Source: a virus. Taken from it: a DNA stretch of 64,000 nucleotides. The translations under genes and the position numbers were made by a program. Below, in pieces: positions 33 through 29,460 of this stretch. The DNA lies in the IMG/VR virus record IMGVR_UViG_3300025133_000029, positions 1 to 64,000 of that record. The stretch is one strand, 5' to 3'. Each line of letters starts with the position of its first letter. Within the stretch, counting starts at the first letter, position 1. The notes beneath the pieces are model-generated. The model worked only from the letters and a program-made list of their open reading frames with translations. It made no database searches and had not been told where the DNA came from.

Positions 33-108
33 AGCGGAGTGGCGCAGTTGCGGTAAGCGCGGTGGGCTCATATCCCACAGGTCAAGGGTTCAACTCCCTT
101 CTCCGCTT
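33..108 (+). tRNA. tRNA-Met (CAT)
   Basis: Full cloverleaf. The 7-bp acceptor AGCGGAG/CTCCGCT is perfect, the D stem is GCGC/GCGC, and the anticodon arm GTGGG-CTCATAT-CCCAC reads CAT. The T arm is AAGGG/CCCTT with loop TTCAACT. CAT could be initiator Met, elongator Met or a lysidine-modified Ile tRNA; a second CAT tRNA lies at 2014. CCA is not encoded. Confidence 0.9.
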
Positions 109-202
109 TTTATTCTTATGATATTCGTTTTGCTCTTTTCGCATGGAGTGGGATGGATGAACTATTTTTATAGTTTGAATGAACCACGTCATAAGAATAT
201 TT

Positions 203-277
203 AAATGAATAGCTCAGCTTGGTTAGAGCATTCGGTTAATAATCGAAAGGTCGTAGGTTCGAATCCTGTCGCTGGCT
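203..277 (+). tRNA. degenerate tRNA-like unit, anticodon reads AAT (Ile-like)
   Basis: The D arm (GCTC/GAGC), an anticodon arm (TTCGG-TTAATAA-TCGAA) and the T arm (GTAGG-TTCGAAT-CCTGT) are present in the right order and spacing. The 5' seven bases (AAATGAA) do not pair with the 3' seven (CGCTGGC), so no acceptor stem forms. Either the tRNA is decaying or its 5' end needs repair. An A34 Ile anticodon is unusual in bacteria. Confidence 0.5.
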
Positions 278-295
278 TTTGTGGGAGGTGATAGT

Positions 296-685
296 ATGGA
301 TGCACGAGGATTTCATTTGGATGTGGACCAAAAGAGCTTCTTTGAAGATGTGTTGCCTTCTTCGGTTGCTCGTTCATTATGTGATGACTTGGTGGAGATA
401 TGGAGCAGTGCGACGGGAGAGCCGTCAAGTAATCTTGTTGTGCAAAAATCGATAGACCTGTTGGATCTGATGTGTCGGCATCCGGGCCTTGCTTTGTATG
501 AGATACTGGCATTGGTGGAAGATTACGTTGTTGGCGATAGTGAACTGAATGAGTCAGCTCATAGATTCGTACTGACTTGGTTTATAGGTAGGGTTAAGAT
601 CCGGATGGACGAGGCCGAAATGATGCTCCCTATATGGTGGGATGCTCCGTCTGATGACCCAGGGAAGAGTATGTACTTGTATTGA
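296..685 (+). CDS. hypothetical protein between tRNA units
   Basis: Encodes 129 aa. The ATG at 296 follows GGGAGGTGATAGT, a good SD at normal spacing, so it is preferred over the GTG at 281. The protein is acidic with mixed helical segments, no signal peptide, no cysteine cluster and no recognised motif. It fills the space between two tRNA-like units (203-277 and about 689-778) and is probably transcribed with them. I do not recognise the family. The SD and lack of overlap with canonical tRNAs argue it is real. Confidence 0.65.
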   Translation: MDARGFHLDVDQKSFFEDVLPSSVARSLCDDLVEIWSSATGEPSSNLVVQKSIDLLDLMCRHPGLALYEILALVEDYVVGDSELNESAHRFVLTWFIGRVKIRMDEAEMMLPIWWDAPSDDPGKSMYLY

Positions 686-688
686 TTG

Positions 689-778
689 TTTCGTGGGAGG
701 TGTTCCTCGCAGCGGACTGTGAATCCGCCGACATGTGTTGCGAGGTGGGCGTCGAGAGGTTTAAATCCTACTTCATCT
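689..778 (+). tRNA. tRNA-like unit with His-type anticodon arm (GTG) and long variable arm
   Basis: A perfect anticodon arm GCGGA-CTGTGAA-TCCGC (712-728) reads GTG. It is followed by a possible variable-arm helix CGAC/GTCG (729-732/751-754) and a T-like loop whose stem keeps only three pairs (AGG/CCT, 757-769). CCTCGCA (705-711) can pair perfectly with TGCGAGG (739-745), enclosing the anticodon hairpin. No normal acceptor or D arm is visible, so this is a tRNA relic, an expanded tRNA or a different structured RNA. Confidence 0.4.
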
Positions 779-784
779 ATTTTT

Positions 785-861
785 TCAAGCAGGACGGTTT
801 TGGTGTCCAGGGATTAAATGTGCGCGCATTGTCCCGAAAGGTTCGACCCCTTTTGCTTGAG
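785..861 (+). ncRNA. tRNA-like RNA without a normal anticodon arm
   Basis: The 7-bp terminal helix TCAAGCA/TGCTTGA (785-791/854-860) is perfect. A D-like arm GGAC/GTCC encloses a 9-nt loop with GG. The T arm AAAGG-TTCGACC-CCTTT (837-853) is canonical. The middle arm is GGGAT/GTCCC (810-814/831-835) around a 16-nt, largely self-complementary loop, so there is no 7-nt anticodon loop. The variable region is one base and the two linker bases before the D stem are missing. It may be a tRNA mimic rather than a translating tRNA. Confidence 0.55.
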
Positions 862-876
862 CTAAAGAGAAATTCT

Positions 877-948
877 CCCGCGTTGGTCTAGTGGTTATGG
901 CACCGGTCTGTCGAATCGGAAAGAGGAGTTCGATTCTCCTACGCGGGG
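877..948 (+). tRNA. tRNA-Asp (GTC)
   Basis: Perfect acceptor CCCGCGT/ACGCGGG. Anticodon arm CCGGT-CTGTCGA-ATCGG with one G-U pair reads GTC. T arm AGGAG-TTCGATT-CTCCT. Discriminator G. Confidence 0.92.
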
Positions 949-1007
949 CTATTTTTTACTGGGGTTGCGCGATAATGCTTGTTGGCATTATGCTTCTTTT
1001 GGTTTCT

Positions 1008-1080
1008 GGGGCTATAGCTCAATTGGGAGAGCGCTAGGTTTGCAACCTGGAGGTCGTCGGTTCGACCCCGACTAGTTCCA
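1008..1080 (+). tRNA. tRNA-Ala (TGC)
   Basis: Acceptor GGGGCTA/TAGTTCC pairs with two G-U wobbles. The D arm GCTC/GAGC is present. Anticodon arm CTAGG-TTTGCAA-CCTGG reads TGC. T arm GTCGG-TTCGACC-CCGAC. Discriminator A. Confidence 0.9.
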
Positions 1081-1092
1081 CTAGTTTTTTTT

Positions 1093-1165
1093 GCCCCGAT
1101 AGCTCAATTGGCAGAGCAGTAGTTTTGTAAACTACAGGTTCTCGGTTCGATTCCGGGTTGGGGCT
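1093..1165 (+). tRNA. tRNA-Thr (TGT)
   Basis: Acceptor GCCCCGA/TTGGGGC pairs with one G-U and a weak last pair. Anticodon arm GTAGT-TTTGTAA-ACTAC reads TGT. T loop TTCGATT. Lies 12 nt after the Ala tRNA. Confidence 0.9.
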
Positions 1166-1478
1166 TTTTAGAATGATTGGGATCGAGTATCGAGCTAGGT
1201 TCCAATAAAATCGAAGGGCATGGGTCGCCACCTCAAACAACTTCGACATAACCTCGTTGGGCGTTGTGAGGTTTCTTTTCTGACAGGGAAGTGTTCAGGA
1301 TGGGATTTCCTGGGCCTTGGAATCCTACCCCTAAGTAACCATGGCAATGTTTAGGGATGGTAGATTTAAGAATATAAAACGAGACTTAGCGGTCAAAAGT
1401 GATTGAATCTTAGCGCGGGGTCAAACCCGTCCAGATGTGTGCATGTTAATGTGACCACAATAACCTGTTGGTTTCTTC
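1166..1478 (+). other. 313-nt gap in the tRNA cluster with hairpins, no gene seen
   Basis: No convincing reading frame or complete tRNA. Hairpins visible are TCGAAG/CTTCGA (1211-1216/1241-1246, with an inner GGC/GCC) and AACCTC/GAGGTT (1250-1255/1268-1273). A CAGGA/TCCTG arm with a 7-nt loop follows further on but has no U33, so it is not a normal anticodon arm. This may hold an unrecognised RNA or decayed tRNAs. Confidence 0.4.
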
Positions 1479-1554
1479 TCTATCTGTGGCGCAGTCCGGT
1501 AGCGTACTGGTTTTGGATACCAGTGGTCGTAGGTTCAAATCCTACCAGATAGAC
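1479..1554 (+). tRNA. tRNA-Pro (TGG)
   Basis: Perfect acceptor TCTATCT/AGATAGA. Anticodon arm CTGGT-TTTGGAT-ACCAG reads TGG. T arm GTAGG-TTCAAAT-CCTAC. Confidence 0.92.
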
Positions 1555-1560
1555 TTCTCC

Positions 1561-1632
1561 TCCTTTACAGTCAATGGTAGACGGCATGCAGTGTGCAGTA
1601 TGCGGGTGGTAGGTTCGAGTCCTCTAGGGGGG
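1561..1632 (+). tRNA. degenerate tRNA-like unit, enlarged anticodon loop
   Basis: The acceptor TCCTTTA/TAGGGGG pairs only with several G-U wobbles. The D stem GTC/GAC is present, and a T arm GTAGG-TTCGAGT-CCTCT has one mismatch. The anticodon arm is too long: GCATG/TATGC closes a 10-nt loop, or GCATGC/GTATGC an 8-nt loop. The anticodon is therefore ambiguous (GTG or GCA). Confidence 0.4.
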
Positions 1633-1644
1633 GGGAGAAGATTT

Positions 1645-1718
1645 GCCTCCGTAGCTCATCTGGATAGAGCGTCAGATTTCTACTCTGAGTGTAGTGGGTT
1701 CGAGTCCTACCGGGGGTA
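1645..1718 (+). tRNA. tRNA-Arg (TCT)
   Basis: Acceptor GCCTCCG/CGGGGGT pairs with two wobbles. Anticodon arm TCAGA-TTTCTAC-TCTGA reads TCT. T arm GTGGG-TTCGAGT-CCTAC. Discriminator A. Reads AGA/AGG. Confidence 0.9.
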
Positions 1719-1739
1719 TTTTTTTACTTAAAGTGCTTT

Positions 1740-1814
1740 TCTCCTATAGCTCAGCTTGGTCAGAGCAATTGACTGTTAATCAATGGGTCGGAGGTTCAAA
1801 TCCTCCTGGGAGAG
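1740..1814 (+). tRNA. tRNA-Asn (GTT)
   Basis: Acceptor TCTCCTA/TGGGAGA. Anticodon arm ATTGA-CTGTTAA-TCAAT reads GTT. T arm GGAGG-TTCAAAT-CCTCC. Confidence 0.92.
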
Positions 1815-1815
1815 C

Positions 1816-1920
1816 TTTTGTTCTGCATCGGGTTGGTGCCGTAATTTATCAAGAATTCTGACGGATTTTGATGAGTCGGTTTACGGTTCTCGGAAGAAGA
1901 TCTTTTGGGACAGAACAAAA
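1816..1920 (+). ncRNA. nested-hairpin RNA candidate between tRNA-Asn and tRNA-Glu
   Basis: The ends pair perfectly over 10 bp (TTTTGTTCTG 1816-1825 with CAGAACAAAA 1911-1920). Inside lie GCCGTAA/TTACGGT (1838-1844/1881-1887) and ATCAAGA/TTTTGAT (1848-1854/1866-1872). The element fits exactly between two tRNAs with 1 and 4 nt to spare and has no reading frame. Ends-paired stems with internal loops are how Y RNAs are built, and a Ro60-like gene lies 0.7 kb downstream. That link is inference. Confidence 0.55.
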
Positions 1921-1924
1921 ACAT

Positions 1925-2003
1925 GGCCTTGTCGTTCACGGTAGGTTAGTTAGGACGCCAGCCTTTCAAGCTGAAGAACCGGGTTCGACCCCCGGTGGGG
2001 CCA
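1925..2003 (+). tRNA. tRNA-Glu (TTC) with enlarged D loop
   Basis: Acceptor GGCCTTG/TGGGGCC pairs with wobbles. The anticodon arm CCAGC-CTTTCAA-GCTGA reads TTC, with a C-A mismatch at its base. T arm CCGGG-TTCGACC-CCCGG. The D arm is about 6-7 nt longer than in usual tRNA-Glu, with a repeated GTTAG, so it looks expanded by a short duplication. Confidence 0.8.
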
Positions 2004-2013
2004 TTTTCTTTAA

Positions 2014-2087
2014 GGACCTATAGCTCAATTGGTTAGAGCTTCCGGCTCATAACCGGATGGTTTCTGGTTCGATCCCAGATGGGTCCA
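2014..2087 (+). tRNA. tRNA with CAT anticodon (Met or Ile2)
   Basis: Acceptor GGACCTA/TGGGTCC. D arm GCTC/GAGC. Anticodon arm TCCGG-CTCATAA-CCGGA reads CAT. T loop TTCGATC. Discriminator A. It is the second CAT tRNA in the cluster, so one of the two may be the lysidine-type Ile tRNA for AUA. Confidence 0.9.
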
Positions 2088-2095
2088 TTTTTTTT

Positions 2096-2238
2096 GCGGG
2101 AATGGTCTAATGGTAAGACGGAGGCGTTTCCAGCCTTTCAGTGCAATTTCAGATCATAAACTCGAGAGGCATTTGTCTTTCATTCTTGTGTATCTTACAA
2201 GCGCGTTTCAGATGTTGGTTCGATTCCAGCTTCCCGCT
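2096..2238 (+). tRNA. tRNA-Gly-like gene interrupted by about 70 nt in the variable region
   Basis: The acceptor GCGGGAA/TTCCCGC is perfect, the D stem is GTCT/AGAC and the T arm GTTGG-TTCGATT-CCAGC is intact. The anticodon arm GAGGC-GTTTCCA-GCCTT reads TTC by strict 7-nt loop rules, or TCC (Gly) if shifted by one. The Gly-type acceptor and D arm favour Gly. About 70 extra bases sit between anticodon and T arms, bounded by direct repeats of TTTCAG (2136, 2147, 2206). Removing one repeat unit (2136-2205) leaves a perfect 73-nt tRNA. Confidence 0.7.
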
Positions 2239-2352
2239 CTATTTTACTGAATCTAGTATTCGGTGTTTTTCTTGTGCCAGATCCTCGCTCCTTCCTGGTT
2301 GATTCTCTAGCAGGGTTATAGATTGATTTTGCGAAATGAGAACAAGGATCGC

Positions 2353-2385
2353 CACCCCCTGGTCTTTGTCCAGCGCTTGGGGGTG
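2353..2385 (+). other. strong hairpin between tRNA-Gly and tRNA-Leu
   Basis: CACCCCC (2353-2359) pairs with GGGGGTG (2379-2385), with an inner TGG/CCA. It sits in the 166-nt gap 2239-2404, which otherwise shows no tRNA or gene. A run of six T follows about 15 nt later, so it could be a processing or weak termination site. Confidence 0.4.
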
Positions 2386-2404
2386 AGGGGATGGCTCCTT
2401 TTTT

Positions 2405-2488
2405 GTCGGAATGGTGGAATCAGGTAGACACGCTTGACTTAAAATCAAGTACTCGAAGAGTGTGTGGGTTCAATTCCCACTTCCGACA
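2405..2488 (+). tRNA. tRNA-Leu (TAA)
   Basis: Perfect acceptor GTCGGAA/TTCCGAC. Anticodon arm CTTGA-CTTAAAA-TCAAG reads TAA. The long class II variable arm contains ACTC/GAGT. T arm GTGGG-TTCAATT-CCCAC. Discriminator A. Confidence 0.93.
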
Positions 2489-2493
2489 TATTT

Positions 2494-2653: not shown

Positions 2654-4609
2654 ATGGTACAACAAGTCGTTCCGGATATGGAGCAAAGATTGGAGAGTCT
2701 TGGTCCTGCAGAGAGGATCTTGAATCACATGTTGGAGTATGTGGATCACCTTTTCCACAATCGTATTGGTATGGTTGTGGAGGATGCCAGAACCCGAATT
2801 GGCGTTCGGTGGCATCACGTCTCATACGAAGAAAAAGATGGACAGAAGGAGGTCATTCGCCTCGACAAAGTTGGAAAGAAGACAACGCGAACCCCTGTGG
2901 GTATTTGGGGTGAAGACGATCTTATTCGAAAAGATGGTGTTGTCGTGGGCCGTTATCAGCCTGCGGGAATCTTCAAAGAGGTCGCGGTTTACATCTATCG
3001 AAACATCGCAGAGATTTGGGCGATGGATCAAGACTTCGTGGCACGCTGGGCTTCGTATGTGTTTTCGCAAGATCACCGTGATATGAAGGTGATTGTTGCA
3101 GCATTTATGTTGGTTCAGTCAGATCGTAGAGGAGATCCTATCCGGAGTGAAGAAACGGGCGAGATTCTTTTCTACGATGAAGACTATCGCGATATTGGTG
3201 AGGCGATGTGCCTTATTCGGCGTCGGGGTTCTGACTTGGGGCCTCGCGAGATTGAACGGATGTTTGATGTTTTGCGGCTTCCTGCAATCGCGGCGATTAA
3301 CCGGGAATTGGGTTTCACTTCTTCTCCCACAAGAAAGGCAAAGGGTCGCCTACCTTCGGTCGTTCGCAGATGGCTTGGGTTTAGAGAGAGAAATCGTCCT
3401 CTCTTGGATGGGATTGTCCGGGCAAGCATGAAGAGAACGGTGTGGCGTTTGTGTCAATACTCTAACTACAAACCTGCGGGTGAAGAATTCTTCCAGGTTC
3501 TGGGCTACAAGCAGAAGCAACGGGACGACGGTCGAAGAAAGATAGCTCTTGATATCGAGATGCCGCAGGCAGAGTCGTGGGAGGGTTTGTCGGAGAGTGA
3601 CATCTGCCAGAAGATATCGGATGAGCGTCTTTCCTTGAAGTATGTGGTAGGGAAGCTTCCATCTTCTGTGGGTATGACGCCAGCAGTTGTTGCAGCATCC
3701 ATGATGCATGGCGGAATGTCGGCAAAAGAAATTCTCATCGCTTCTCCCACTCTTGAGGCTTTGGGACTCCTGGATGTTCCAGAGATCAAGGCAAAGCATG
3801 CAGAGGCGTTGGCGCAGGTGGCCAAGAGAGCCGAGGACCAACGTGCAGCAAATATTGCGATGCGTATGCGCAAAAAAGAGAACGTGCAAGCTTTGGAGCA
3901 AGTGAGCGAAGCAGTTGTGGCGAAGAAGGTTGAAAAATCTTTGGAAGACTTCATGCTTTATCTTGTCATCGACAGGTCTATTTCAATGCGAGGTTCCTTG
4001 GAGAGGGGTAAACAAATGCTGCTCCAGATGCTTCCTGGCATTTTGCAGGTGGGAATGGATAAAATCAAAGTTTCCACATTCAATACAGACGGGAAGGAGA
4101 TTAGGTTCCGCCATGCTTCTGCAGAGGGGGTTGAGCATGCTTTTCGGAGTGAAAAGGCAAGTGGAGGTACTGCTTATGCAGAGGGCGTTCGGGTTCTCAA
4201 TGGGTATCCTCCCAAAGATCACGAAGAATCCATTATCTTCTTTGTTGGTGATCAGGAGGACAGAAACACAGACGGTCTTGTTCGGGCCATTAATCTTTCG
4301 GGACTGCGCCCTGCAGCGTTTGGTTTGATTGAAGTTCTGAGTCCCACACAAATGAGAGATACGAGGCGTCCACGGATTGTGGAGGCAACGGCTGCTCGTT
4401 TGGGTATTCCGTGTTTCATGATTGAAGAAGACACCTTCAGTGATCCCTATGCGCTTCCTCGGACGTTACAACGTTTGATCGAGTCGACTCCGGTTACGGA
4501 ACAAGTCACAGCGAGTCGTGCTTCGGTTGGTAGGGGACGTCGGAAGTCTTTGATTGAGAAAATTTTAGAGACAGATCTTCTTCGAAAGCCTGGATGGGCG
4601 ATGGGATAG
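2654..4609 (+). CDS. Ro60-like (TROVE plus vWA) RNA-binding protein, probable
   Basis: Encodes 651 aa; the ATG follows AGGAGGAGAGTGA. Residues about 100-340 are helical and Arg/Lys-rich and include a YKP...FF..LGYKQKQ stretch that resembles the TROVE ring of Ro60/Rsr proteins. Residues about 432-600 form a vWA domain with a metal site D440-x-S442-x-S444, a later Thr near 506 and an Asp near 532. Ro proteins bind Y RNAs and misfolded RNAs, and a set of tRNAs, a tRNA-like RNA and a nested-hairpin RNA lies directly upstream. The vWA assignment is secure; TROVE is from memory of the family. A MoxR-partner-type vWA protein is the main alternative. Confidence 0.6.
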   Translation: MVQQVVPDMEQRLESLGPAERILNHMLEYVDHLFHNRIGMVVEDARTRIGVRWHHVSYEEKDGQKEVIRLDKVGKKTTRTPVGIWGEDDLIRKDGVVVGRYQPAGIFKEVAVYIYRNIAEIWAMDQDFVARWASYVFSQDHRDMKVIVAAFMLVQSDRRGDPIRSEETGEILFYDEDYRDIGEAMCLIRRRGSDLGPREIERMFDVLRLPAIAAINRELGFTSSPTRKAKGRLPSVVRRWLGFRERNRPLLDGIVRASMKRTVWRLCQYSNYKPAGEEFFQVLGYKQKQRDDGRRKIALDIEMPQAESWEGLSESDICQKISDERLSLKYVVGKLPSSVGMTPAVVAASMMHGGMSAKEILIASPTLEALGLLDVPEIKAKHAEALAQVAKRAEDQRAANIAMRMRKKENVQALEQVSEAVVAKKVEKSLEDFMLYLVIDRSISMRGSLERGKQMLLQMLPGILQVGMDKIKVSTFNTDGKEIRFRHASAEGVEHAFRSEKASGGTAYAEGVRVLNGYPPKDHEESIIFFVGDQEDRNTDGLVRAINLSGLRPAAFGLIEVLSPTQMRDTRRPRIVEATAARLGIPCFMIEEDTFSDPYALPRTLQRLIESTPVTEQVTASRASVGRGRRKSLIEKILETDLLRKPGWAMG

Positions 4610-4688: not shown

Positions 4689-5390
4689 ATGAAAACGAAG
4701 AATATTGGTCGTGCAAAGAAATGGTCTCGTGTACATGTGGTCGTTTTGGTTGTGGGAGTAGCACTGTCAGTCTTGCTGATAGGTGTGTCATCAATTCTTT
4801 GGTTGAAAGTAAAAAAAGTGGCTTGGGGTATTTCGTTGCTTTTGACTGGAGGGTTCACAATGGGAATGTCTATTTATGGATATTTTCAATTACGGGAAAT
4901 GTATAATTGGAGTGAGTTGTATTGGAATACGAAGGTACCATCGTATAAAAGAAAAGGTACGGGATGGAAGAAGCTTTTGACGCATTGGTATGGACTTTTG
5001 GGTTTTGTGTGGTCTCTGCCAGTGTCTTTGCCATATGCCCTATATGTTTTCTTTTTTGTTTTATTGGGACAATATAGGTTTGTAAGAAGATACGGTTGGA
5101 CGCTAGAATTTGAAACGGTGTACAATAGCTGGGTACACAAGAAATATTGGGAAGGGAAGTGGTCTGGAGCCAATGGTGGGGCTATAACGGTGTATAGTCA
5201 TTTGTATGTGAATAATGAAGATACACAGGACCATGAACGACGACACGCTTGGCAGGTTTTTTGTTTTGGTTTCTATGGGGTTTTTATTTATGCGATCCAT
5301 TCTATTTATTTATATGCATCGGGAAAAGATGGATACAGGGATGTCTTTTTAGAAGAAGAGGCTCGCAGAGCGGAACATTTAGATCACTAG
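4689..5390 (+). CDS. membrane protein with HExxH-type motif
   Basis: Encodes 233 aa; start ATG after AAGGAGTTTTT. Hydrophobic helices are at about residues 15-38, 45-66, 98-125 and 190-212. H182-E183-x-x-H186 is followed by W-Q and, about 35 residues later, an EEEA segment. That is the layout of zinc proteases with a third Glu ligand, and HE..H..Q resembles DUF4157-type peptidase cores. The motif sits just before the last membrane helix, facing the cytoplasm or periplasm depending on topology. The AT content is higher than in its neighbours. Substrate unknown; a non-catalytic role is possible. Confidence 0.6.
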   Translation: MKTKNIGRAKKWSRVHVVVLVVGVALSVLLIGVSSILWLKVKKVAWGISLLLTGGFTMGMSIYGYFQLREMYNWSELYWNTKVPSYKRKGTGWKKLLTHWYGLLGFVWSLPVSLPYALYVFFFVLLGQYRFVRRYGWTLEFETVYNSWVHKKYWEGKWSGANGGAITVYSHLYVNNEDTQDHERRHAWQVFCFGFYGVFIYAIHSIYLYASGKDGYRDVFLEEEARRAEHLDH

Positions 5391-5433
5391 AAAGTTGCGA
5401 TGGATTGTGCTTTCTTACCTGACAGGAGTCGAT

Positions 5434-6402
5434 ATGGTTTGGCAGGCATTATTGAAACCAGAGGTGGGGCAAGAACGTTTTGTGGCTCCTTGGTTTGGGC
5501 AGAAACAAATTTTATCACCAAAGGGCAGATGTTTTTCTCTAAAGGGAAGGCGTCATCGGGAGCATGGATGGTATTTTTTTGAAATCACTAAGCCCAAGAT
5601 AGTGAGGTGTGTGTTGGGCGAGGAGGCGTCTGCACCAGATGGTTGGGGGGAGAGCGAAAGAAGGGTCCAGGGATACGCTGTAGGGGATAGGTTGATTCTG
5701 GATAGTATTGGCTTTGTAAATGATCCTTCTAAAATCATTGAGCATTCGAGGTCGGTTTATTTTTTGGATCCGGGTTTAGATCGTTTTTCCAGAGTATCTG
5801 CAGTGGAATACGAGAGCGGAGATTTGTTATTTTATCAGCAAGAGTTTCCTTTGGGTCCTGAGTCTTTGGCATTGGATGCTTTTTTGGATGGAAGAGAAGA
5901 TTTGAGTGGGATAAAAGAAGTTACTCCTGCATTGCATTTTTCTTTTCTGTTTGAGCGGTGGGTTCAGGAGGAGCAGAGGGCAAGGATTCGAATTCTAGAG
6001 GAACATCGTCTAGAGCAAGAGCGCCTTTTGCGTGAAGCGGAGATGAGGGCGGAGATAGAGCGCTCAGTGGGCGATGGGGCGTCTAGAAGGGCGATGGCCT
6101 TGGTAGATTTTGAGGCGGCAGCAGGGGCGGCTTTGCGGCTTTCTGGGGCAGAACTGTTAGATGTGAGAGATGGCTATCGGGGGGAGAAAACAATTCGTTT
6201 TCGTTATAGGGAGAGGCGCTTTTGTTCGGTTATCAACGGTACTACTTTGGAAGTTATAGATTCTGGCATTTGTTTGGTGGGGAATGATCGATTATTTACG
6301 TTAGAAAGCCTTCCCAGTGTTATTGGAATGGCTATGGATGAAGGAGTTCTTCACGTTTTTCGTCGGGTAGATGATTATTATGGATATGGCGATGATGATT
6401 AG
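5434..6402 (+). CDS. hypothetical protein with central coiled coil
   Basis: Encodes 322 aa from the ATG at 5434, which has ACAGGAG seven bases upstream; an upstream frame extends to 5395 but lacks a good SD. Residues about 178-212 are Glu/Arg/Leu-rich and predicted coiled coil. Flanking parts look globular and beta-rich. It ends with an acidic DDYYGYGDDD tail. It stands directly before the JAMM peptidase, separated by palindrome copy 2. Family not recognised; no E2-type motif was found in it. Confidence 0.7.
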   Translation: MVWQALLKPEVGQERFVAPWFGQKQILSPKGRCFSLKGRRHREHGWYFFEITKPKIVRCVLGEEASAPDGWGESERRVQGYAVGDRLILDSIGFVNDPSKIIEHSRSVYFLDPGLDRFSRVSAVEYESGDLLFYQQEFPLGPESLALDAFLDGREDLSGIKEVTPALHFSFLFERWVQEEQRARIRILEEHRLEQERLLREAEMRAEIERSVGDGASRRAMALVDFEAAAGAALRLSGAELLDVRDGYRGEKTIRFRYRERRFCSVINGTTLEVIDSGICLVGNDRLFTLESLPSVIGMAMDEGVLHVFRRVDDYYGYGDDD

Positions 6403-6454
6403 AGAATAAGTGGGAGTTATTGTTTCTTTTTTCTTTTACCTAAAAATCAAAAAA

Positions 6455-6471
6455 TCTTTAGAGTCTAAAGA
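6455..6471. repeat. 17-bp palindrome copy 2 (centre G)
   Basis: Perfect arms, flanked by AAAA/TTTTTT. Ends 19 nt before the ATG of the JAMM gene and precedes its SD. Confidence 0.95.
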
Positions 6472-6490
6472 TTTTTTGCAAGGAATAGTC

Positions 6491-6982
6491 ATGTCATTTT
6501 TAGAAACTGCGGTTGTTATTGGCAAAAATGGGGATCCCCTCTATTGGCATGAACCTTTGGGGAGGACTTCCGTCTATATCCCCGATTCCCAAAATTTGTG
6601 GGATGTTCTTTGGGAAAACAGGGACGATCTTTTGGGTGTTGCACACACACATCCAGGGAATGGGAAGCCAGTTCCTTCTCCAATAGATTTGGACACATTC
6701 TATGGGTGTGAACTAGGTCTAGGCTTCGGGCTGGCATGGTGGATAGCAACAGAGGATGAATTTCAAGAATTTAGACTTGTTCATTTTGATAGGAAGGTGG
6801 TTTTTCCGGGGTTGGATGAGTCTAAAGCAGAAAAATTTATTTGTTCGCCCACATCATGGATGGATTCTTCTGGTCTTTGTTATTCTACTTCGTTGTTTGA
6901 ACTGTGTAAATTGGGGCCTGATAAGCGGGTACCTGATTGGGTACATGAATTGCGTAGCAGGTCTGGCTACGAAGGAGATTAA
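6491..6982 (+). CDS. JAB/MPN (JAMM) metallopeptidase
   Basis: Encodes 163 aa. ATG 6491 has AAGGAATAGTC before it; the longer frame from 6410 would read through the palindrome region. The JAMM zinc motif is complete: Glu5, then H52-T-H54-P-G, S63 and D66. This is the Prok-JAB type seen next to E1-like and ubiquitin-like genes. Such enzymes remove C-terminal tails from ubiquitin-like proteins or cleave their conjugates. The next gene, 6 nt downstream, is a small candidate ubiquitin-like protein, and an E1-like gene lies at 9384. Catalytic residues are all present, so it should be active. Confidence 0.85.
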   Translation: MSFLETAVVIGKNGDPLYWHEPLGRTSVYIPDSQNLWDVLWENRDDLLGVAHTHPGNGKPVPSPIDLDTFYGCELGLGFGLAWWIATEDEFQEFRLVHFDRKVVFPGLDESKAEKFICSPTSWMDSSGLCYSTSLFELCKLGPDKRVPDWVHELRSRSGYEGD

Positions 6983-6988
6983 AAAACG

Positions 6989-7282
6989 ATGACAACAGCA
7001 TTGGTTACTACGATTCGAGATGATCAAGCAAAATTGAACATCACATGGGAAGGGCAAAACGGAGAACTTCCTGACGCGGTCCCTGCAAGCTCGAGCGACG
7101 AAGAGGTCAAAAGGTTCGCAGAGGAAGCCGTGCGAGGGGGAGACGTTCCGGGTATTTCGGCAGATCCCAATGCGGACTTTTCGAGCTTTGTCGTTCGTCG
7201 GTATGAACCGGAGGCGAGGGTTCCATATCTTCGGTTTTTCTTGCAACCCAAAACTCAGTTTGGGATTGCTCCAAAATGGTAG
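6989..7282 (+). CDS. small ubiquitin-like protein candidate
   Basis: Encodes 97 aa; ATG after GAAGGAGATTAAAAAACG. It begins with a short beta-like segment (LNITWEGQNGELPD), then an acidic helix, and ends in PKTQFG-IAPKW. The single Gly92, followed by five residues, would be a natural processing site for the JAMM peptidase encoded just upstream. From memory, similar short proteins ending in KTPFG occur in other phages. The beta-grasp fold is inferred from length, context and tail, not from a strong motif. Overlaps the next gene by 7 nt. Confidence 0.5.
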   Translation: MTTALVTTIRDDQAKLNITWEGQNGELPDAVPASSSDEEVKRFAEEAVRGGDVPGISADPNADFSSFVVRRYEPEARVPYLRFFLQPKTQFGIAPKW

Positions 7283-8142
7283 CGCATCCAGGAGAAATGA
7301 CGGCAAGGGATCGCTTCTACAGTGATAGGTTAGAGAAAACCTTTTTCATTATAGAAGCGACTTCCTTTGAGCAGCACACTCTTTGGCAGAACCACCACTA
7401 CTACCCAACTCTCTCGCTAGATTATAGAGGATTTCGAGAGGAGTCTGTTTCGTGGGATAGTCTGTCTGGGATAATTATAACGATAGGGCACTTGGGGGAA
7501 AAGCTAGTTGCTATTTCTTTATCGTGGGTTATGGTTAATGGAGTGCCTGTTCTGTTTTGGTGTCCTAGCTCGAAAGTGGTTTGCTATGACTTGATAGAGA
7601 AGTGGTTCTCTGAGAATTGTGTACCAGAACGATGGGGTAATGGTACGCGAAGGTCGTATACGGATGCGAACAACTTCAGTCATTGTAGAATTGCAATTAA
7701 AGAATATAAGGATGGCGAACACAGCAATCCTTATAAATATCCATTTGACTTTCCGATACATTCACCACCAAAGGAAATCGATCTGAAAGATTTGGAAGCT
7801 TTTGATTTAGCAAAGCGACAGAAGGATCTGGATGTTTGTTGCAGATCTTGTGGTCGAAGTGATATCCGCCTCTATCGAAGCTATGGGGGATTTCGGCGAA
7901 CCGAAGAAGATAGATGCAACGAGCATCTGGAGGAGGTCTGTTCGGGTGAGGATTTTAGGGGGTGGTATGTTCCTCTTATAGTCGATGATGCGGGGAATGC
8001 ATGGGGATATACTTCAGTTCCGCAAAATGCTATAGATGCTTTCTATGGTTTAGAAGATTTTACACAGGAAAAACCATATTGGTGTGGTCCTGGTGAAAGA
8101 TCTGATGGGATTTCGGGTTGGTCTAATCGGTCATTGGCTTAG
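7276..8142 (+). CDS. hypothetical phage protein with Cys pairs
   Basis: Encodes 288 aa. ATG 7276 overlaps the previous stop; ATG 7297 directly behind AGGAGAA is an alternative. The N-terminal half has a GVPVLFWCPSS segment and a GTRRSYTDANNFSHC segment. Similar pieces occur in unannotated phage proteins next to JAMM genes, as far as I recall. The C-terminal half carries CCRSCG near residue 190 and a later Cys/His pair, possibly a zinc site. Its place between Ub-like and E1-like genes makes a role in that cassette possible, but no E2 active-site motif is seen. Confidence 0.6.
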   Translation: MVAHPGEMTARDRFYSDRLEKTFFIIEATSFEQHTLWQNHHYYPTLSLDYRGFREESVSWDSLSGIIITIGHLGEKLVAISLSWVMVNGVPVLFWCPSSKVVCYDLIEKWFSENCVPERWGNGTRRSYTDANNFSHCRIAIKEYKDGEHSNPYKYPFDFPIHSPPKEIDLKDLEAFDLAKRQKDLDVCCRSCGRSDIRLYRSYGGFRRTEEDRCNEHLEEVCSGEDFRGWYVPLIVDDAGNAWGYTSVPQNAIDAFYGLEDFTQEKPYWCGPGERSDGISGWSNRSLA

Positions 8143-8146
8143 GGAT

Positions 8147-8707
8147 ATGATTATTGTAGATTCCTTACAAAATGATCCGACAAATGTTATTTTTTTAGAC
8201 ATGGATGGCGTTCTCAATAATAGAGATTTTTTAACAGAATCATTTCTAAGATGGAAGAGAGATAAAAAGAAGGGAATTGTTAAAGACTGGGGAATTGGTG
8301 AGGGGTTTTTGTATTTGATTTGCGAACAACTGGTAGAGCGACTGAATCGAATAACATTGGCCACAGATGCAAAGTTAGTAATGTCTTCTTCTTGGCGTTA
8401 TTCGTGGTATGAAGACTTTGAGGGACTTCAAGATTTATTCAAAAATGCAGGGATTCAAGGTGAGTTAATAGGGATGACGCCTTTGGGAGTGTCTGGAGGG
8501 GATTCGCGAGGAAAACAGATACAACGATGGTTGGATGAAAATCTTAAAAATTCTAAAGGGTGGCAAATAAATAGATTTATCATTTTGGATGATAGTTCTG
8601 ATATGGAGCATTTGATGTCGTTCTTGGTGAGGACAAGCTTGCATGGCCCCATGGGAGGTTTGCAAGACAAACATGTAAAAAAAGCAATCTCTCAATTATT
8701 AGGATAA
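8147..8707 (+). CDS. HAD-superfamily hydrolase
   Basis: Encodes 186 aa from ATG 8147; a longer frame from 8084 would overlap the previous gene by 59 nt. Motif I is D18-M-D20-G-V-L-N, motif II is in SSSWR, and a late acidic motif lies in ILDDSSDM. This is the compact HAD type common in large phages. It is likely a phosphatase acting on a nucleotide or other small phosphoester; the substrate is unknown. All key acidic residues are present. Confidence 0.8.
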   Translation: MIIVDSLQNDPTNVIFLDMDGVLNNRDFLTESFLRWKRDKKKGIVKDWGIGEGFLYLICEQLVERLNRITLATDAKLVMSSSWRYSWYEDFEGLQDLFKNAGIQGELIGMTPLGVSGGDSRGKQIQRWLDENLKNSKGWQINRFIILDDSSDMEHLMSFLVRTSLHGPMGGLQDKHVKKAISQLLG

Positions 8708-8744
8708 TAAGAATATTGTTTTTTTTGAATCCAATGGAGTTGTT

Positions 8745-9371
8745 ATGCCTTTTGGTAAACTTATTCCTGAAATGGAGACGTATTTAGCGAATCTATGTGC
8801 AGGACGTCATGTGTGGGATTTAGGTGCAGGTGATTGCATAAGGTCCTTGGGTTTGTATAACTTGGGTGCATCAAGGGTTACAGCGGTTGATAAGGCTTTT
8901 CTTAAGGGGGAGTTGGGAAATCCATCTGTTGCAGAAGGTCTTCCGGATCTATACAGAGATGATTGGTTTTCTGCGATTGCTTGTTATTTCGAAGATCTTT
9001 TTTCAGGAAATCATATTCCTAGAGATGGAATTGATATTGCCTTTGTTTCTTGGCCAGTTGACAAGCGGAGTATGTCGGGTTTAGTCAAAGTGTTGGAAGC
9101 ATCTGATGTTATTGTTTATTTGGGCAAAAATACAGATGGAACTCAGTGTGGCAATGCGGAGTTGTTTCGGTATTTACTCCATAGAGAAATATTAGTGCAT
9201 ATTCCTTGTGAGATAAACACATTGATTGTGTACGGAGATGTGAGGATGTGTAGAAGGGAGAGAATTCTTTTCGAGGAGTATTGTGCTTTTTATCATGGCT
9301 TAGTCTCTTATGATTCTGGCTATGCGCAATTGAATCAGGATATGTTGTATTGGTTAAATTTTGGGTCTTAA
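8745..9371 (+). CDS. SAM-dependent methyltransferase-like protein
   Basis: Encodes 208 aa. Motif I reads W-D25-L-G27-A-G29-D, followed about 20 residues later by TAVDKA, whose Asp would bind the SAM ribose. This is a class I methyltransferase N-terminal half. No NPPY or other target-specific motif is present, so the substrate is unknown. It has several cysteines and no zinc cluster. It lies between the HAD gene and the E1-like gene with short gaps, so all are probably on one transcript. Confidence 0.65.
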   Translation: MPFGKLIPEMETYLANLCAGRHVWDLGAGDCIRSLGLYNLGASRVTAVDKAFLKGELGNPSVAEGLPDLYRDDWFSAIACYFEDLFSGNHIPRDGIDIAFVSWPVDKRSMSGLVKVLEASDVIVYLGKNTDGTQCGNAELFRYLLHREILVHIPCEINTLIVYGDVRMCRRERILFEEYCAFYHGLVSYDSGYAQLNQDMLYWLNFGS

Positions 9372-9383
9372 GGGGAAAGAAAC

Positions 9384-9983
9384 GTGTCAAAGAAAATAGT
9401 TATTGTGGGTGGCGGTGCTCTGGGTTCTCATCTATTGTTTGGCTTGAGGGCACAATTGTTTACTCGTAGTGGCGAAGGACTGTCTGTATGTGTTGTTGAC
9501 TTTGATGTTGTTGAGCAAAAGAACCTTTGGTCTCAATTGCATACTAAGATGTCTATTCGAAAACGAAAATCACAAGCTTTGCAGCAGGCTATGAATGGTC
9601 TTTTTGGGATTCGTATCGAAAGCAACACGAATCGTCTAGAAGAGAATAACAAAGAGGTTATTTTGAATGATGCATTCTTGATTGTGGATTGTGTTGATAA
9701 TGCAGCGACACGAATACTTATTCAAGAGTACGCAAGGGAGAAAAATATTGCGTGTCTCCATGGCGCACTTGCGGCGGGTGGGATTTTTGGAAGCGTCCAT
9801 TGGAATGAGAGGTTTGTAGTGGATGAAGATCCAGAAGAAGAGCAAGCGACGTGCGAGGATGGAGCCTTTCTACCATTCATACAATTCACATCTGCTTTGA
9901 TGGCAGGAACCATTCAGGAGTTCTTGGAGAGTGGGAAAAAGAGAAGCTTTAATCTATTTCCTTGGAATGTTTTAGAAATATAG
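9384..9983 (+). CDS. E1-like adenylyltransferase (ThiF/MoeB/HesA family)
   Basis: Encodes 199 aa; GTG start after AAGGGGAAAGAAAC. The nucleotide-binding loop is G9-G-G-A-L-G-S, followed by V-D39-F-D41-x-V-E and N46, then D102-C-V-D-N. These are the conserved ThiF-fold ATP-binding residues. It is shorter than ThiF or MoeB (about 240-250 aa) and lacks their CxxC zinc pairs. Cys157 is placed where a catalytic Cys could act. E1 enzymes adenylate the C-terminal Gly of a ubiquitin-like protein; the candidate partner is the 97-aa protein at 6989. Confidence 0.85.
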   Translation: MSKKIVIVGGGALGSHLLFGLRAQLFTRSGEGLSVCVVDFDVVEQKNLWSQLHTKMSIRKRKSQALQQAMNGLFGIRIESNTNRLEENNKEVILNDAFLIVDCVDNAATRILIQEYAREKNIACLHGALAAGGIFGSVHWNERFVVDEDPEEEQATCEDGAFLPFIQFTSALMAGTIQEFLESGKKRSFNLFPWNVLEI

Positions 9984-10020: not shown

Positions 10021-10075
10021 TAATAATGGGAAGGGGAGATCTTTAGAGTCTAAAGATCTCCCCTTCCCATTATTA
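10021..10075. terminator. 55-bp perfect inverted repeat built around palindrome copy 3
   Basis: Arms of 27 bp are fully complementary (10021-10047/10049-10075) around a single central G at 10048. The inner 17 bp (10040-10056) are the palindrome TCTTTAGA-G-TCTAAAGA. The outer part adds a GGGAAGGGGA/TCCCCTTCCC block. It lies between the E1-like gene and the helicase gene. It could end transcription from either side or serve as an extended protein-binding site. Confidence 0.8.
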
Positions 10076-14175: not shown

Positions 14176-17100
14176 ATGAAGAGTAAACTACCTCAGCCCC
14201 CATTGCCACAGCCTCCTCCGTCATTAGAGGCAACAGCCCACTCTCTTCCTCTTGTTCCTTTGTCGCCTCATTCAGTACCTCCGGAGATGCCTGTTTTTAT
14301 ATCGGCGAATATTCCGGGGTCTGGTAATTCCTTGCCTGTACCGAGCGGAGGAACGGATGGAATGGTTGGTGGGGCGCAACTGGCTAGGAATTCGGTTCAC
14401 CATTTCCCAACACAGCCAGTGGTGGATACCCCATCGCTTAGAGTCGCACCGACATTGCCAGAAAATGTTTGGGCAGAGCCAAAAGCTACAGCGAGTGTTT
14501 TGGATAAGTATCCTTTTCATAGTGAGGTTCAAGATGATATTTTGCGGCTTATGGCAACGAAAAAGCATTTTTCTCGAGCAGCTTTAGATTGGGTTAGACC
14601 TGGATATTTCGAAGGCGACGAGCGTCGAGCATTAGCAGCGACAATGTTAGACTTTTTTAAAGATTATGGATTTCCTCCAACCGAAGGGCAGATGTTCACA
14701 GAGTTGCAGCGGAGAGGGCAGCTTAGTGGTGAACTGAAGGAGAACTTAGAATCTTTAGTGGATAGTGTTTATCGTATTCCTCCAACAACACCAGACTATA
14801 CTGTGGAGGTAGTATCAGAGTTTGCAGAAACCCAGGCTTGGATTTCTGCAGTGTTACGTGCAGGCCCTCTCATCCGGCAAAGAAAATTTTCAGAGATGAA
14901 AAAAATAATGCGGGAAGCAGAGAATATTGGAGGGGTTCTTGAGACGGGCGGGACTTGGTTTTTTGAGGAAACCGAAGAGCGATCCCGACGCAGGAACGAT
15001 GAAGTGCATATTGCTTCTCGTATTATTCCGACAGGTGTTCCAGACCTGGATAGAATCATACGTTATGGTGGACCTGCTAAGGGAGAAGTAGGAATAGTAG
15101 TAGCCAGTACGGGCAAAGGCAAGTGCTTACGAGAAGACACTTGGCTGAGTGTGCCGGGAGGTTACAAACGTCTAGGAGACTTAATAAGAGAAGATATTGG
15201 ATTGGAAGATTTAGAAACAATATCTGAGGGATGGCATCAATTCAACAACCGACCGTTAGTATTTGATGCCAATGGTATTTGTCGTGAAATTGATAAATTC
15301 TATGCTAATGGAAACAAGATTTCTTATTCGGTGACAATGAGGGACGGGATGTCCTTAGTTGGAAGCTCGGAACATCCATTACTTGTAGTGAGGGATGGTA
15401 TCTGGACATGGATAACCATGTCCGAAATAAAAGAGGGAGATGTTGTTGCTTCTTTGCGTGATTCAAAACCTTTTGGTTTGAATTATGATAACGAGGTTTC
15501 GAATAATTTTAGCTTGGGTGGTGATTGGAATATTAGAAAGGGAAAGGAGAAGTTTACTCCTTTGCAGCGGTGGCCGACTAAAGGAAGTTCGGAACTGGCG
15601 GAATGGGTGTCCTTGTTGCTTGCAGAAGGTTATTATAATGCACCTCCAACGGCTCCCTATAGATTATCGTTTACAAATAAAGAAGATGTTCTGATAGATC
15701 GTTTTATATATCTATCACGAGAGTTATTTTCTTTGAATCTTCGGTCAGTTGCATCGGAGGATGGGAGTAAGGTTGTAATAATCGATAGCAAAGCTCTTGT
15801 TCGATATCTTTGTCTAATTGATATTCCTCCCGGACGATCAGCGGACAAGAGAGTACCTGCTTGGATTATGGACGGAGGGGAGGCAATACGGCGATCTTTT
15901 GTTTCAACTTTTTTTACGTGTGAATCGCATGTAAGAGATGACTTTTCGATAGAAATCTCGTCCGCGTCATCAGAAATGATAGAGCAGATACATCTGTTGC
16001 TTCTTTCTGATGGTATTTACTGTCGCTCGTTTGCAAAGCGTGGAACTGCGACAAATGGTCTAGATTTAGAACGTTTATATTTTCGTTTAATTGTTATGGG
16101 GAAAGAAAATCTAAGAAAATATAAGCAAATTGGCTTCATGTCGGGGAGCAATAAGTTTTTTGCTTTCCAAAAAGCATTACAAGCTCCAACATTTTCAAAC
16201 AGCTTAACGAATTTTAGAGATAAAATACATGGAGCACCATCGATATTAAGATCCATCAAGAAAAGAATACAAGAGATGGATTCAACTCCAGGAGGGAGAA
16301 TAAGGAGAGGGCTTGGATTATCGAATCGTCTAGGAAAGCGTATCAGTAATAATTTCAGAGCATCTATAGATCGGAATAGTGTTTCTTATGATTTCTGTTT
16401 GGAAATACTATCTGGATGCTCCAAAATTGAAGATGAGAAACTTCAAGGTTTATTGCAGGAGTTGAGATTATTAATTCGGTATAGAATGATTGAAGTTATA
16501 GATGTGCAAAGGACTCGGTGCTTTACCTATGACATAGAGGTCCCAGATTCTCATCATTTTATTGCCAATTCCTTTGTTTCACACAATTCGATCGCCCTTG
16601 GTCAGTTTGCTAGGAGAGGGGTCTGGGAAGGTGAAAATGTAGCTATTTTCTCTGGTGAGATGTCAGAAGAGAAATTCTCAGATCGTCTTGACGCAGCCTT
16701 CACAGGTTTGCGTATGAACGAGATTGGAAACGAAGAAGAGTTCCTTTCTCGCATGGAGATATTGCGCACACGTTTCAAGAAAAAGCTTTGGATTCGAAGG
16801 TTTCCAACAAAAGGTGCATCTATTGGGGATTTGAGAGCGTCGTTAGAGTCCATGAGGAGGGAAGGTTGGACTCCGGGTATGATTATTTTGGACTATGCAG
16901 CCTTAGTTAAGCCAGAGGTATCGAGAGATCAGAGGCATACCGAGATTCAGGAGATCCTTCAGGCTTTTAGGGGATTGTGTATTGATTTCGACGCAGTGGG
17001 TTGGACTGCACTTCAAGCATCTCGCCAAGGTGAGAAAGCATATATTATTAAGGGTGATCATGTTGCAACGTCTTGGGATAGTTTGGGGGATGCAGATTAT

Positions 17101-17247
17101 ATTTTCTCCATCAACATGACGGATGATGAGAAAGTCGCAAACCAGTTGCGTTTGTATATTATCAAAAACAGAGATGGGGATATGTCACGGATCACGATTG
17201 GTCCCTTGCAATCGGATTATGCGAGGATGTGTTTTGTTAAGATTTGA
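14176..17247 (+). CDS. DnaB-type replicative helicase, intein-containing
   Basis: Encodes a 1023-aa precursor, 535 aa after splicing. Residues 1-95 are Pro-rich; about 112-205 resemble the DnaB N-terminal helical domain. The P-loop A-S-T-G-K-G-K (310-316) is interrupted by an intein at residues 317-804. After splicing the loop continues as GK-SIALGQ. Downstream are FSGEMSEE (after Walker A), the Walker B IILDYAALV and TALQASRQG, typical of DnaB/RecA-like hexameric helicases. It would unwind DNA at the fork with the primase at 17636. SD AGGG upstream; palindrome copy 4 sits just before the gene. Confidence 0.9.
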   Translation: MKSKLPQPPLPQPPPSLEATAHSLPLVPLSPHSVPPEMPVFISANIPGSGNSLPVPSGGTDGMVGGAQLARNSVHHFPTQPVVDTPSLRVAPTLPENVWAEPKATASVLDKYPFHSEVQDDILRLMATKKHFSRAALDWVRPGYFEGDERRALAATMLDFFKDYGFPPTEGQMFTELQRRGQLSGELKENLESLVDSVYRIPPTTPDYTVEVVSEFAETQAWISAVLRAGPLIRQRKFSEMKKIMREAENIGGVLETGGTWFFEETEERSRRRNDEVHIASRIIPTGVPDLDRIIRYGGPAKGEVGIVVASTGKGKCLREDTWLSVPGGYKRLGDLIREDIGLEDLETISEGWHQFNNRPLVFDANGICREIDKFYANGNKISYSVTMRDGMSLVGSSEHPLLVVRDGIWTWITMSEIKEGDVVASLRDSKPFGLNYDNEVSNNFSLGGDWNIRKGKEKFTPLQRWPTKGSSELAEWVSLLLAEGYYNAPPTAPYRLSFTNKEDVLIDRFIYLSRELFSLNLRSVASEDGSKVVIIDSKALVRYLCLIDIPPGRSADKRVPAWIMDGGEAIRRSFVSTFFTCESHVRDDFSIEISSASSEMIEQIHLLLLSDGIYCRSFAKRGTATNGLDLERLYFRLIVMGKENLRKYKQIGFMSGSNKFFAFQKALQAPTFSNSLTNFRDKIHGAPSILRSIKKRIQEMDSTPGGRIRRGLGLSNRLGKRISNNFRASIDRNSVSYDFCLEILSGCSKIEDEKLQGLLQELRLLIRYRMIEVIDVQRTRCFTYDIEVPDSHHFIANSFVSHNSIALGQFARRGVWEGENVAIFSGEMSEEKFSDRLDAAFTGLRMNEIGNEEEFLSRMEILRTRFKKKLWIRRFPTKGASIGDLRASLESMRREGWTPGMIILDYAALVKPEVSRDQRHTEIQEILQAFRGLCIDFDAVGWTALQASRQGEKAYIIKGDHVATSWDSLGDADYIFSINMTDDEKVANQLRLYIIKNRDGDMSRITIGPLQSDYARMCFVKI
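15124..16587 (+). mobile_element. intein in DnaB P-loop, LAGLIDADG-like
   Basis: 488 residues. The N-terminal splice residue is Cys317, followed by LREDTWLSVPGG. The C-terminal end is HHFIANSFVSHN with Ser805 as the +1 residue, so all splicing residues are present. The GSSEHPLLVV block is the usual TxxH-type motif. Two degenerate LAGLIDADG-like stretches (LLLAEGYY and a later FVSTFFTCES) suggest a decayed homing endonuclease, because the second acidic motif is altered. Splicing is needed to rebuild Walker A. Confidence 0.9.
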
Positions 17248-29446: not shown

Positions 29447-29460
29447 AGGAGAATTTGAGC

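Follow-up and report, generated by a model that had tools for sequence, protein, structure and literature searches.

The virus record IMGVR_UViG_3300025133_000029 carries, close to its start, a cassette of genes for a ubiquitin-like protein (Ubl), its predicted processing and activating enzymes, and two partner proteins, and this cassette adjoins an array of tRNA genes. The window analyzed here comprises positions 1 to 64,000, which is the first 64 kb of the 161-kb record. Ten tRNA genes recognized by ARAGORN occupy positions 33..2489 of the plus strand, an interval that takes in every one of the 11 tRNA matches found in the 161-kb record, and the cassette starts 165 bp downstream. The five core genes, delineated by profile searches, lie on the plus strand and encode in order a von Willebrand factor type A (VWA) protein (2654..4609), a 322-aa protein (5434..6402), a JAMM/JAB peptidase (6491..6982), the 97-aa Ubl (6989..7282), and a compact, 199-aa ThiF/E1 adenylating enzyme (9384..9983). 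This order on a single strand is found in 63 of 74 distinct loci, a recurrence which argues that the trio of JAMM, Ubl, and E1 is not a chance arrangement.

A preliminary description of this DNA had proposed that the Ubl, E1, and JAMM act together, and the finding that the three genes stay together in relatives bears this out. The same description had placed the boundaries of the cassette at 6491-9983, which left out the two conserved upstream genes (2654-4609 and 5434-6402) as well as the tRNA array. Neither the two partner proteins (VWA and 322-aa) nor the location in a tRNA array had been noticed at that time, and their inclusion changes which biology is likely for the system; taken as a whole, the earlier interpretation is partly supported.

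The ubiquitin-like protein, its peptidase, and its activating enzyme

Members of the Ubl family characteristically end in RPKTPFG, and the window copy reads QPKTQFG-IAPKW, that is, a variant of the family motif plus five extra residues, confirming the C-terminal sequence originally reported for the 97-aa protein. The codon of Gly92 lies at 7262-7264, and residues 93-97 constitute a predicted removable tail. Of 79 homologues, 78 retain the terminal Gly and one has Ala in its place; variable tails of 0-61 residues follow. The 79 comprise 77 motif-matched sequences and two, the window copy and that of locus L159, which were read by eye; among the 77, 20 stop exactly at the motif (including the one with Ala for Gly), 27 have one more residue, and the rest have tails of up to 61 residues. 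An AlphaFold model built with 72 homologues depicts a beta-beta-alpha-beta-beta domain (pLDDT 90) and, beyond it, a flexible end, and this predicted fold is compatible with a beta-grasp. About half (~25) of the 50 highest-ranking Foldseek neighbors are, by our reading, ubiquitin-like or beta-grasp proteins, including PB1, UBL, RBD, EccD, and doublecortin domains, although none is significant (best E 0.18). No credible match to the Ubl was found in Pfam, PHROGs, NCBIfam, or PADLOC.

The JAMM gene, as had been anticipated, specifies a peptidase with complete zinc residues (E5, H52xH54P, S63xxD66): its product passes the curated cut-off for Pfam Prok-JAB (E 1.5e-5), and 22 homologues show no variation at E5, H52, H54, P55, S63, or D66. 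JAMM and Ubl form the tightest gene pair of the cassette, with a median gap of 12 bp and a gap of 50 bp or less in 55 of 70 cases; no natural fusion of core domains was found. In five bacterial genomes that carry the cassette, a JAMM was undetectable anywhere in the genome, and the Ubl already ends at -FG in all five. In the remaining 12 bacterial loci this end is present in 4; the difference has a hypergeometric P of ~0.02, calculated by hand and ignoring kinship and gaps in metagenome-assembled genomes (MAGs). This correlation is the one expected of a JAMM that removes the tail, and tail removal is thus the likely role of the JAMM. The earlier proposal of a processing site after Gly92 is supported as well.

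The compact ThiF-fold enzyme of the preliminary description also proved genuine (Pfam ThiF, E 1e-20). The E1 aligns with MoeB across 169 residues, with retention of D105, K62, and the GxGxxG loop; its adenylation residues are invariant, as is Cys157 (codon 9852-9854), which corresponds in the alignment to the active-site cysteine Cys187 of MoeB. The zinc-site cysteines 172/175 of MoeB are not kept. All key E1 residues are retained in the most divergent copies.

The VWA protein and the 322-aa protein

The VWA protein consists of a long N-terminal region and a C-terminal VWA domain, the latter identified as VWA_2 in 19 of 19 homologues. Its metal ion-dependent adhesion site is complete (D440, S442, S444, T506, D533), also in divergent copies. 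In a profile comparison the full-length protein matches TROVE with E 9.5e-7, suggesting a kinship with Ro60 and a Ro60/TROVE-like architecture, and by analogy with TROVE the N-terminal region may be helical. Pfam did not call TROVE in the 19 homologues examined, and a search for Y RNA near the VWA gene gave only below-threshold matches that overlap or adjoin tRNAs.

The 322-aa protein, whose start was corrected from 5395 to 5434, was analyzed in a 72-row alignment. An AlphaFold2 model of high mean confidence (pLDDT 91) predicts an N-terminal beta domain, a long helix (coiled coil), and a C-terminal domain bearing an invariant GxCL motif. Cys280 of this motif (codon 6271-6273) does not vary among the 72 sequences and is retained in the most divergent copies as well. 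The N-terminal beta domain has weak OB-fold matches: proteins with that fold (cold-shock, eIF1A, S1, TRAM) turn up repeatedly among the best Foldseek neighbors, none significant. An E2 fold was considered for this protein because its GICL...LESLP segment resembles an E2 active-site region, but the idea was rejected as no UBC match was obtained with Pfam, PDB profiles, or Foldseek.

Distribution and the tRNA-array setting

Among 50,697 annotated phage records, Virus Rctr197k is the sole one with recognizable relatives of the small protein and the JAMM; its small protein is 47% identical to the window copy, the E1 is also present, and the gene order is identical. A single-sequence query of the viral set gave no match, whereas scans of IMG/VR with alignment queries yielded dozens more contigs with cassette genes, many of them >200 kb. 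A scan of GTDB added 12 bacterial contigs, mostly from Myxococcota and including the isolate Paraliomyxa miuraensis, in whose phylum the 322-aa protein is present in 11 of 284 genomes. The small protein had no match in plasmids. In total, the five-gene order inside tRNA gene clusters recurs in ~60 further phages and in certain soil bacteria. A divergent 595-kb phage (LR756511) encodes the VWA protein, the 322-aa protein, the JAMM, and the E1 in order within a 29-tRNA array; these four are very divergent, and the Ubl was not identified there.

In a tree of the VWA proteins, bacterial and phage copies are interspersed, with at least 6 changes between the two, which repeated exchange, or the binning of phage contigs into MAGs, would explain. 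Four divergent Myxococcota copies form one clade, and two of these lie on 1-3 Mb contigs. The possibility that the bacterial loci are stray prophages was rejected for the large contigs because the neighbors are ordinary chromosomal genes; short MAG contigs could still be prophage. In one Myxococcota locus (L173, 8898-11522; G115), the copy of the 322-aa protein lies within an 874-aa open frame that shares DNA with the VWA gene in a different reading frame, and this long frame is probably a start-site extension.

Most of these loci are associated with tRNA genes. Within the stretch examined per locus, tRNA genes are present in 61 of the 74 loci and number ten or more in 38. They flank the cassettes rather than interrupt them (845 flanking vs 3 inside), are oriented on the same strand as the cassette in 830 cases vs 15 on the opposite strand, and have a median distance, for the nearest tRNA, of 317 bp upstream and 492 bp downstream. 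For four whole records, with a few weak tRNA matches left out, 44/46, 27/32, 11/11, and 21/54 tRNAs fall within 15 kb of the cassette, as compared with random means of 3.6, 2.7, 1.2, and 3.0 (P 0.02, 0.04, 0.10, and 0.03, respectively). Chromosomal copies in Myxococcota share the location, and on a 3.2-Mb bacterial contig the cassette likewise sits in a tRNA array, with 17 tRNAs and non-phage neighbors. Some of the phage tRNA arrays also contain tmRNA genes (L083, L107, L134, L139, and L075).

Proposed function and alternative readings

Gene content and order, conserved catalytic residues, variable tails beyond the glycine, and location in tRNA arrays can all be read directly from the sequences. 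From these we infer trimming, activation, and attachment of the Ubl, a ribonucleoprotein role, and protection against tRNA-cutting defenses. We propose, with a probability of roughly 0.55, that the cassette is a five-protein Ubl pathway that travels with tRNA arrays and serves a tRNA-handling, Ro60-like ribonucleoprotein. According to this model, the JAMM would trim the Ubl to its -FG end, and the ThiF-fold E1 would adenylate the exposed Gly and hand the Ubl to its own Cys157. The Ubl would then be attached to, or regulate, the VWA protein and/or the OB-fold-like 322-aa protein, whose Cys280 is a possible acceptor or a relay replacing an E2. The VWA and 322-aa proteins may assemble into a Ro60-like ribonucleoprotein whose task would be to bind, check, or protect the phage tRNAs, plausibly when host defenses cut tRNAs. 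There is precedent for a Ro-like protein acting in connection with tRNA, since broken tRNAs elicit a response from the rsr-yrlBA-rtcBA operon (PMC7790460), and it has been suggested that the tRNAs of phages act against host anticodon nucleases (PMC10264068). The most specific form of the proposal is that, in phages and some Myxococcota, an E1-activated and JAMM-trimmed tag builds or switches a Ro60-like ribonucleoprotein guarding the tRNAs of the array against defenses that cut tRNA, with no classical E2 and with the 322-aa cysteine as relay; this we put forward tentatively, and would sooner bet against than for.

Several observations weigh against the proposed pathway. As the preliminary description had stated, no E2 is recognizable: none was found among the core proteins with Pfam, PADLOC, PDB profiles, or the Foldseek top lists, and the cassette yielded no E3. 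By hhalign, the Ubl has no significant relationship to ThiS/MoaD or to the PRTRC C protein (E 0.15 for the latter). The link between the VWA protein and TROVE resides mostly in the VWA domain, the N-terminal part alone giving E 0.086, albeit in register with the match of the full-length protein, and the OB-fold assignment of the 322-aa protein is weak because the Foldseek matches behind it are non-significant. Conjugates, substrate, and tRNA binding are still predictions. Finally, 13 of the 74 loci have no tRNA in the stretch examined, and some loci, those of Myxococcota among them, have none nearby, so the arrays may be mere insertion hotspots. The cassette would then be a self-standing Ubl system with no bearing on tRNA, acting for example in counter-defense or in the regulation of host proteins. 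Other genes do gather in the tRNA regions of phages, among them those for HNH-like/zinc-ribbon proteins, of which 91 ORFs are scattered through the arrays of related phages in 44 loci (L088, L090, L105, L121, and others). HNH is, however, the sole other protein family that recurs across many of the 74 loci on the coding strand, the tie to tRNA holds in the divergent phage and in the chromosomal copies, and the Ro-like architecture would, if genuine, be a pointer to RNA; we consider a chance residence in hotspots quite unlikely.

The main rival, and a serious one, is that the Ubl is a sulfur carrier whose C-terminus is converted by the E1 to a thiocarboxylate used for tRNA thiolation, in the manner of Urm1-Uba4 or TtuB-TtuC. 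It remains serious because the E1 and Ubl alone cannot separate the two readings. In its favor, the E1 matches MoeB, Uba4, and ThiF best in the PDB, the location in tRNA arrays would be directly explained, and Urm1-type Ubls tie E1 chemistry to tRNA thiolation (PMC7527816). Against it, a rhodanese domain was not found on the 199-aa E1, and no tRNA thiotransferase (PP-loop) or sulfurtransferase was recognized among the recurrent genes of the 74 loci, although host enzymes could serve. The Ubl ends in -FG, whereas the ThiS/MoaD proteins used for comparison end in -GG. The VWA and 322-aa partners are also not known to act in any described sulfur relay. On balance we regard the sulfur-carrier route as unlikely. 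The presence of TcdA and yeast Tcd1 among the PDB matches of the E1 (E 1e-10 to 2e-9) and the tRNA context would also accord with an E1 that modifies tRNA itself, as TcdA/CsdL does for t6A, with the Ubl and JAMM in regulatory roles. Conservation of a Ubl with a terminal Gly near the E1, of the MoeB-type Cys157, and of the tight pairing of JAMM with Ubl makes this very improbable. The idea of a diverged PRTRC or Bil-type system fares equally poorly and, as far as membership goes, is already largely refuted. The E1 is related to the PRTRC ThiF protein, and PRTRC likewise joins a Ubl, a JAB, and an E1, but beyond the non-significant comparison of the Ubls the JAMM has no profile match to PRTRC A, and the core proteins match neither the E2-like B protein nor ParB, E, or F. 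The specific connection to Bil systems drawn earlier reduces to a generic E1 similarity (BilD, E 4e-4) in a cassette with no E2.

The function of the dozens of tRNAs carried by huge phages is debated, and a conserved five-protein system residing in the arrays of phages and bacterial chromosomes would offer a handle both on this question and on the way in which Ubl tagging proceeds without an E2. Work on tRNA arrays in the open-access literature describes HNH genes together with hypothetical proteins, or else RNases, and does not include the cassette. No description of a tRNA-array Ubl cassette was found in the open-access literature searched, to which the provisional claim of novelty is limited; prokaryotic Ubl operons are known from defense, plasmid, and sulfur contexts.

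Passenger genes and other features of the window

Four further genes on the plus strand are interspersed with the core genes of the window copy and are not conserved in the cassette. They encode a 233-aa protein between the first two core genes (4689..5390), a 288-aa protein with a match to phrog_18096 in residues 17-143 (7276..8142), a HAD enzyme (HAD_SAK_2, E 7e-24; 8147..8707), and a methyltransferase-like protein (8745..9371). The latter three lie within the boundaries first drawn; they are real ORFs but do not belong to the conserved set, and the suggestion that the 7276-8142 protein is a transfer enzyme was rejected because that protein is absent from the other cassettes. Two minus-strand families that seemingly recur among the loci were discarded as shadow ORFs of core genes.

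A palindrome, ATCTTTAGAGTCTAAAGAT, lies just upstream of the JAMM gene (6454..6472), with further copies at 2493-2511 and 10039-10057, and these three copies probably mark transcription-unit boundaries. Allowing up to 3 mismatches, the window contains 18 sites, many of them intergenic, which start at 2493, 6454, 10039, 14135, 17301, 22595, 24744, 26551, 31978, 36880, 42595, 44710, 46234, 48892, 51048, 54311, 59162, and 61334; they amount to 36 both-strand matches vs 0.02 expected. The palindrome resembles a phage-specific terminator or regulatory site dividing transcription units. Elsewhere in the window are an intein-containing, DnaB-like helicase that also has a LAGLIDADG domain (14176-17247), an AAA+ ATPase adjoining a CobT-type VWA protein in a MoxR/CobS-CobT-like pair (19272-22591), and a RecA interrupted by an intein (29455-31539).

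Comparison with known systems

PRTRC denotes the ParB-related, ThiF-related cassette, in which the Ubl is protein C, the JAB protein A, and the E2 protein B. The tRNA-array cassette resembles it in combining, within one operon, a Ubl with a conserved terminal Gly and a variable tail, a JAB, and a ThiF-type E1, and the E1s are related (hhalign E 8.5e-15), although the score against TIGR03736, the PRTRC ThiF model, lies far below its cut-off (48.6 vs 144.75 bits). It differs in lacking ParB, the E2 (B), E, and F, in having a Ubl and a JAMM that are unrelated by profile, in possessing the VWA and 322-aa proteins, and in its residence in tRNA arrays. In PRTRC plasmid loci with no annotated protein A (L224, L225) the Ubl ends exactly at KG/RG, and several loci with protein A (among L219, L221, L226, and L227) have long Ubl tails, the same tail-JAB logic as in the tRNA-array cassette.

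Other prokaryotic JAB-Ubl-E1 operons (Iyer et al. 2006, PMC1779556, classes 4-6) and the Bil/BubCD systems share the implied chemistry, whereby a JAMM trims and an E1 activates. Unlike the cassette, the class 6 operons and Bil have E2-related proteins and class 4 has sulfur-metabolism partners; VWA or von Willebrand domains are not mentioned in PMC1779556. A VWA protein does occur together with Ubl, E1, and JAB in the vWA-MoxR 'FtsH ternary' systems (PMC7159879), but these have a MoxR AAA+ protein, FtsH, an E2, a RING E3, and an effector, all of which are missing from the five-gene core. The Ro60/Rsr (TROVE) proteins and the rsr-yrlBA-rtcBA operon (PMC7790460) provide the likeness of an N-terminal region joined to a C-terminal VWA domain and a link to tRNA or tRNA-like RNA; the cassette differs in having no Pfam TROVE call, no above-threshold Y RNA, and no RtcA/RtcB in its core, with Ubl genes instead. 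TROVE occurs in some jumbo phages (PMC7824862), and an overview of jumbo phages covers TROVE and RNA repair with no such Ubl system. With Urm1-Uba4 and TtuB-TtuC the cassette has in common a Ubl, a MoeB-like E1, and a tRNA context, and it departs from them in having no rhodanese or thiotransferase, an -FG end, and extra core genes. The lambda-type tail proteins TAPI (Ubl) and TAPK (JAB) likewise represent a phage-borne Ubl-JAB pair; they are, however, encoded by tail-assembly genes without an E1 (PMC1779556), whereas the cassette described here resides in a tRNA array.

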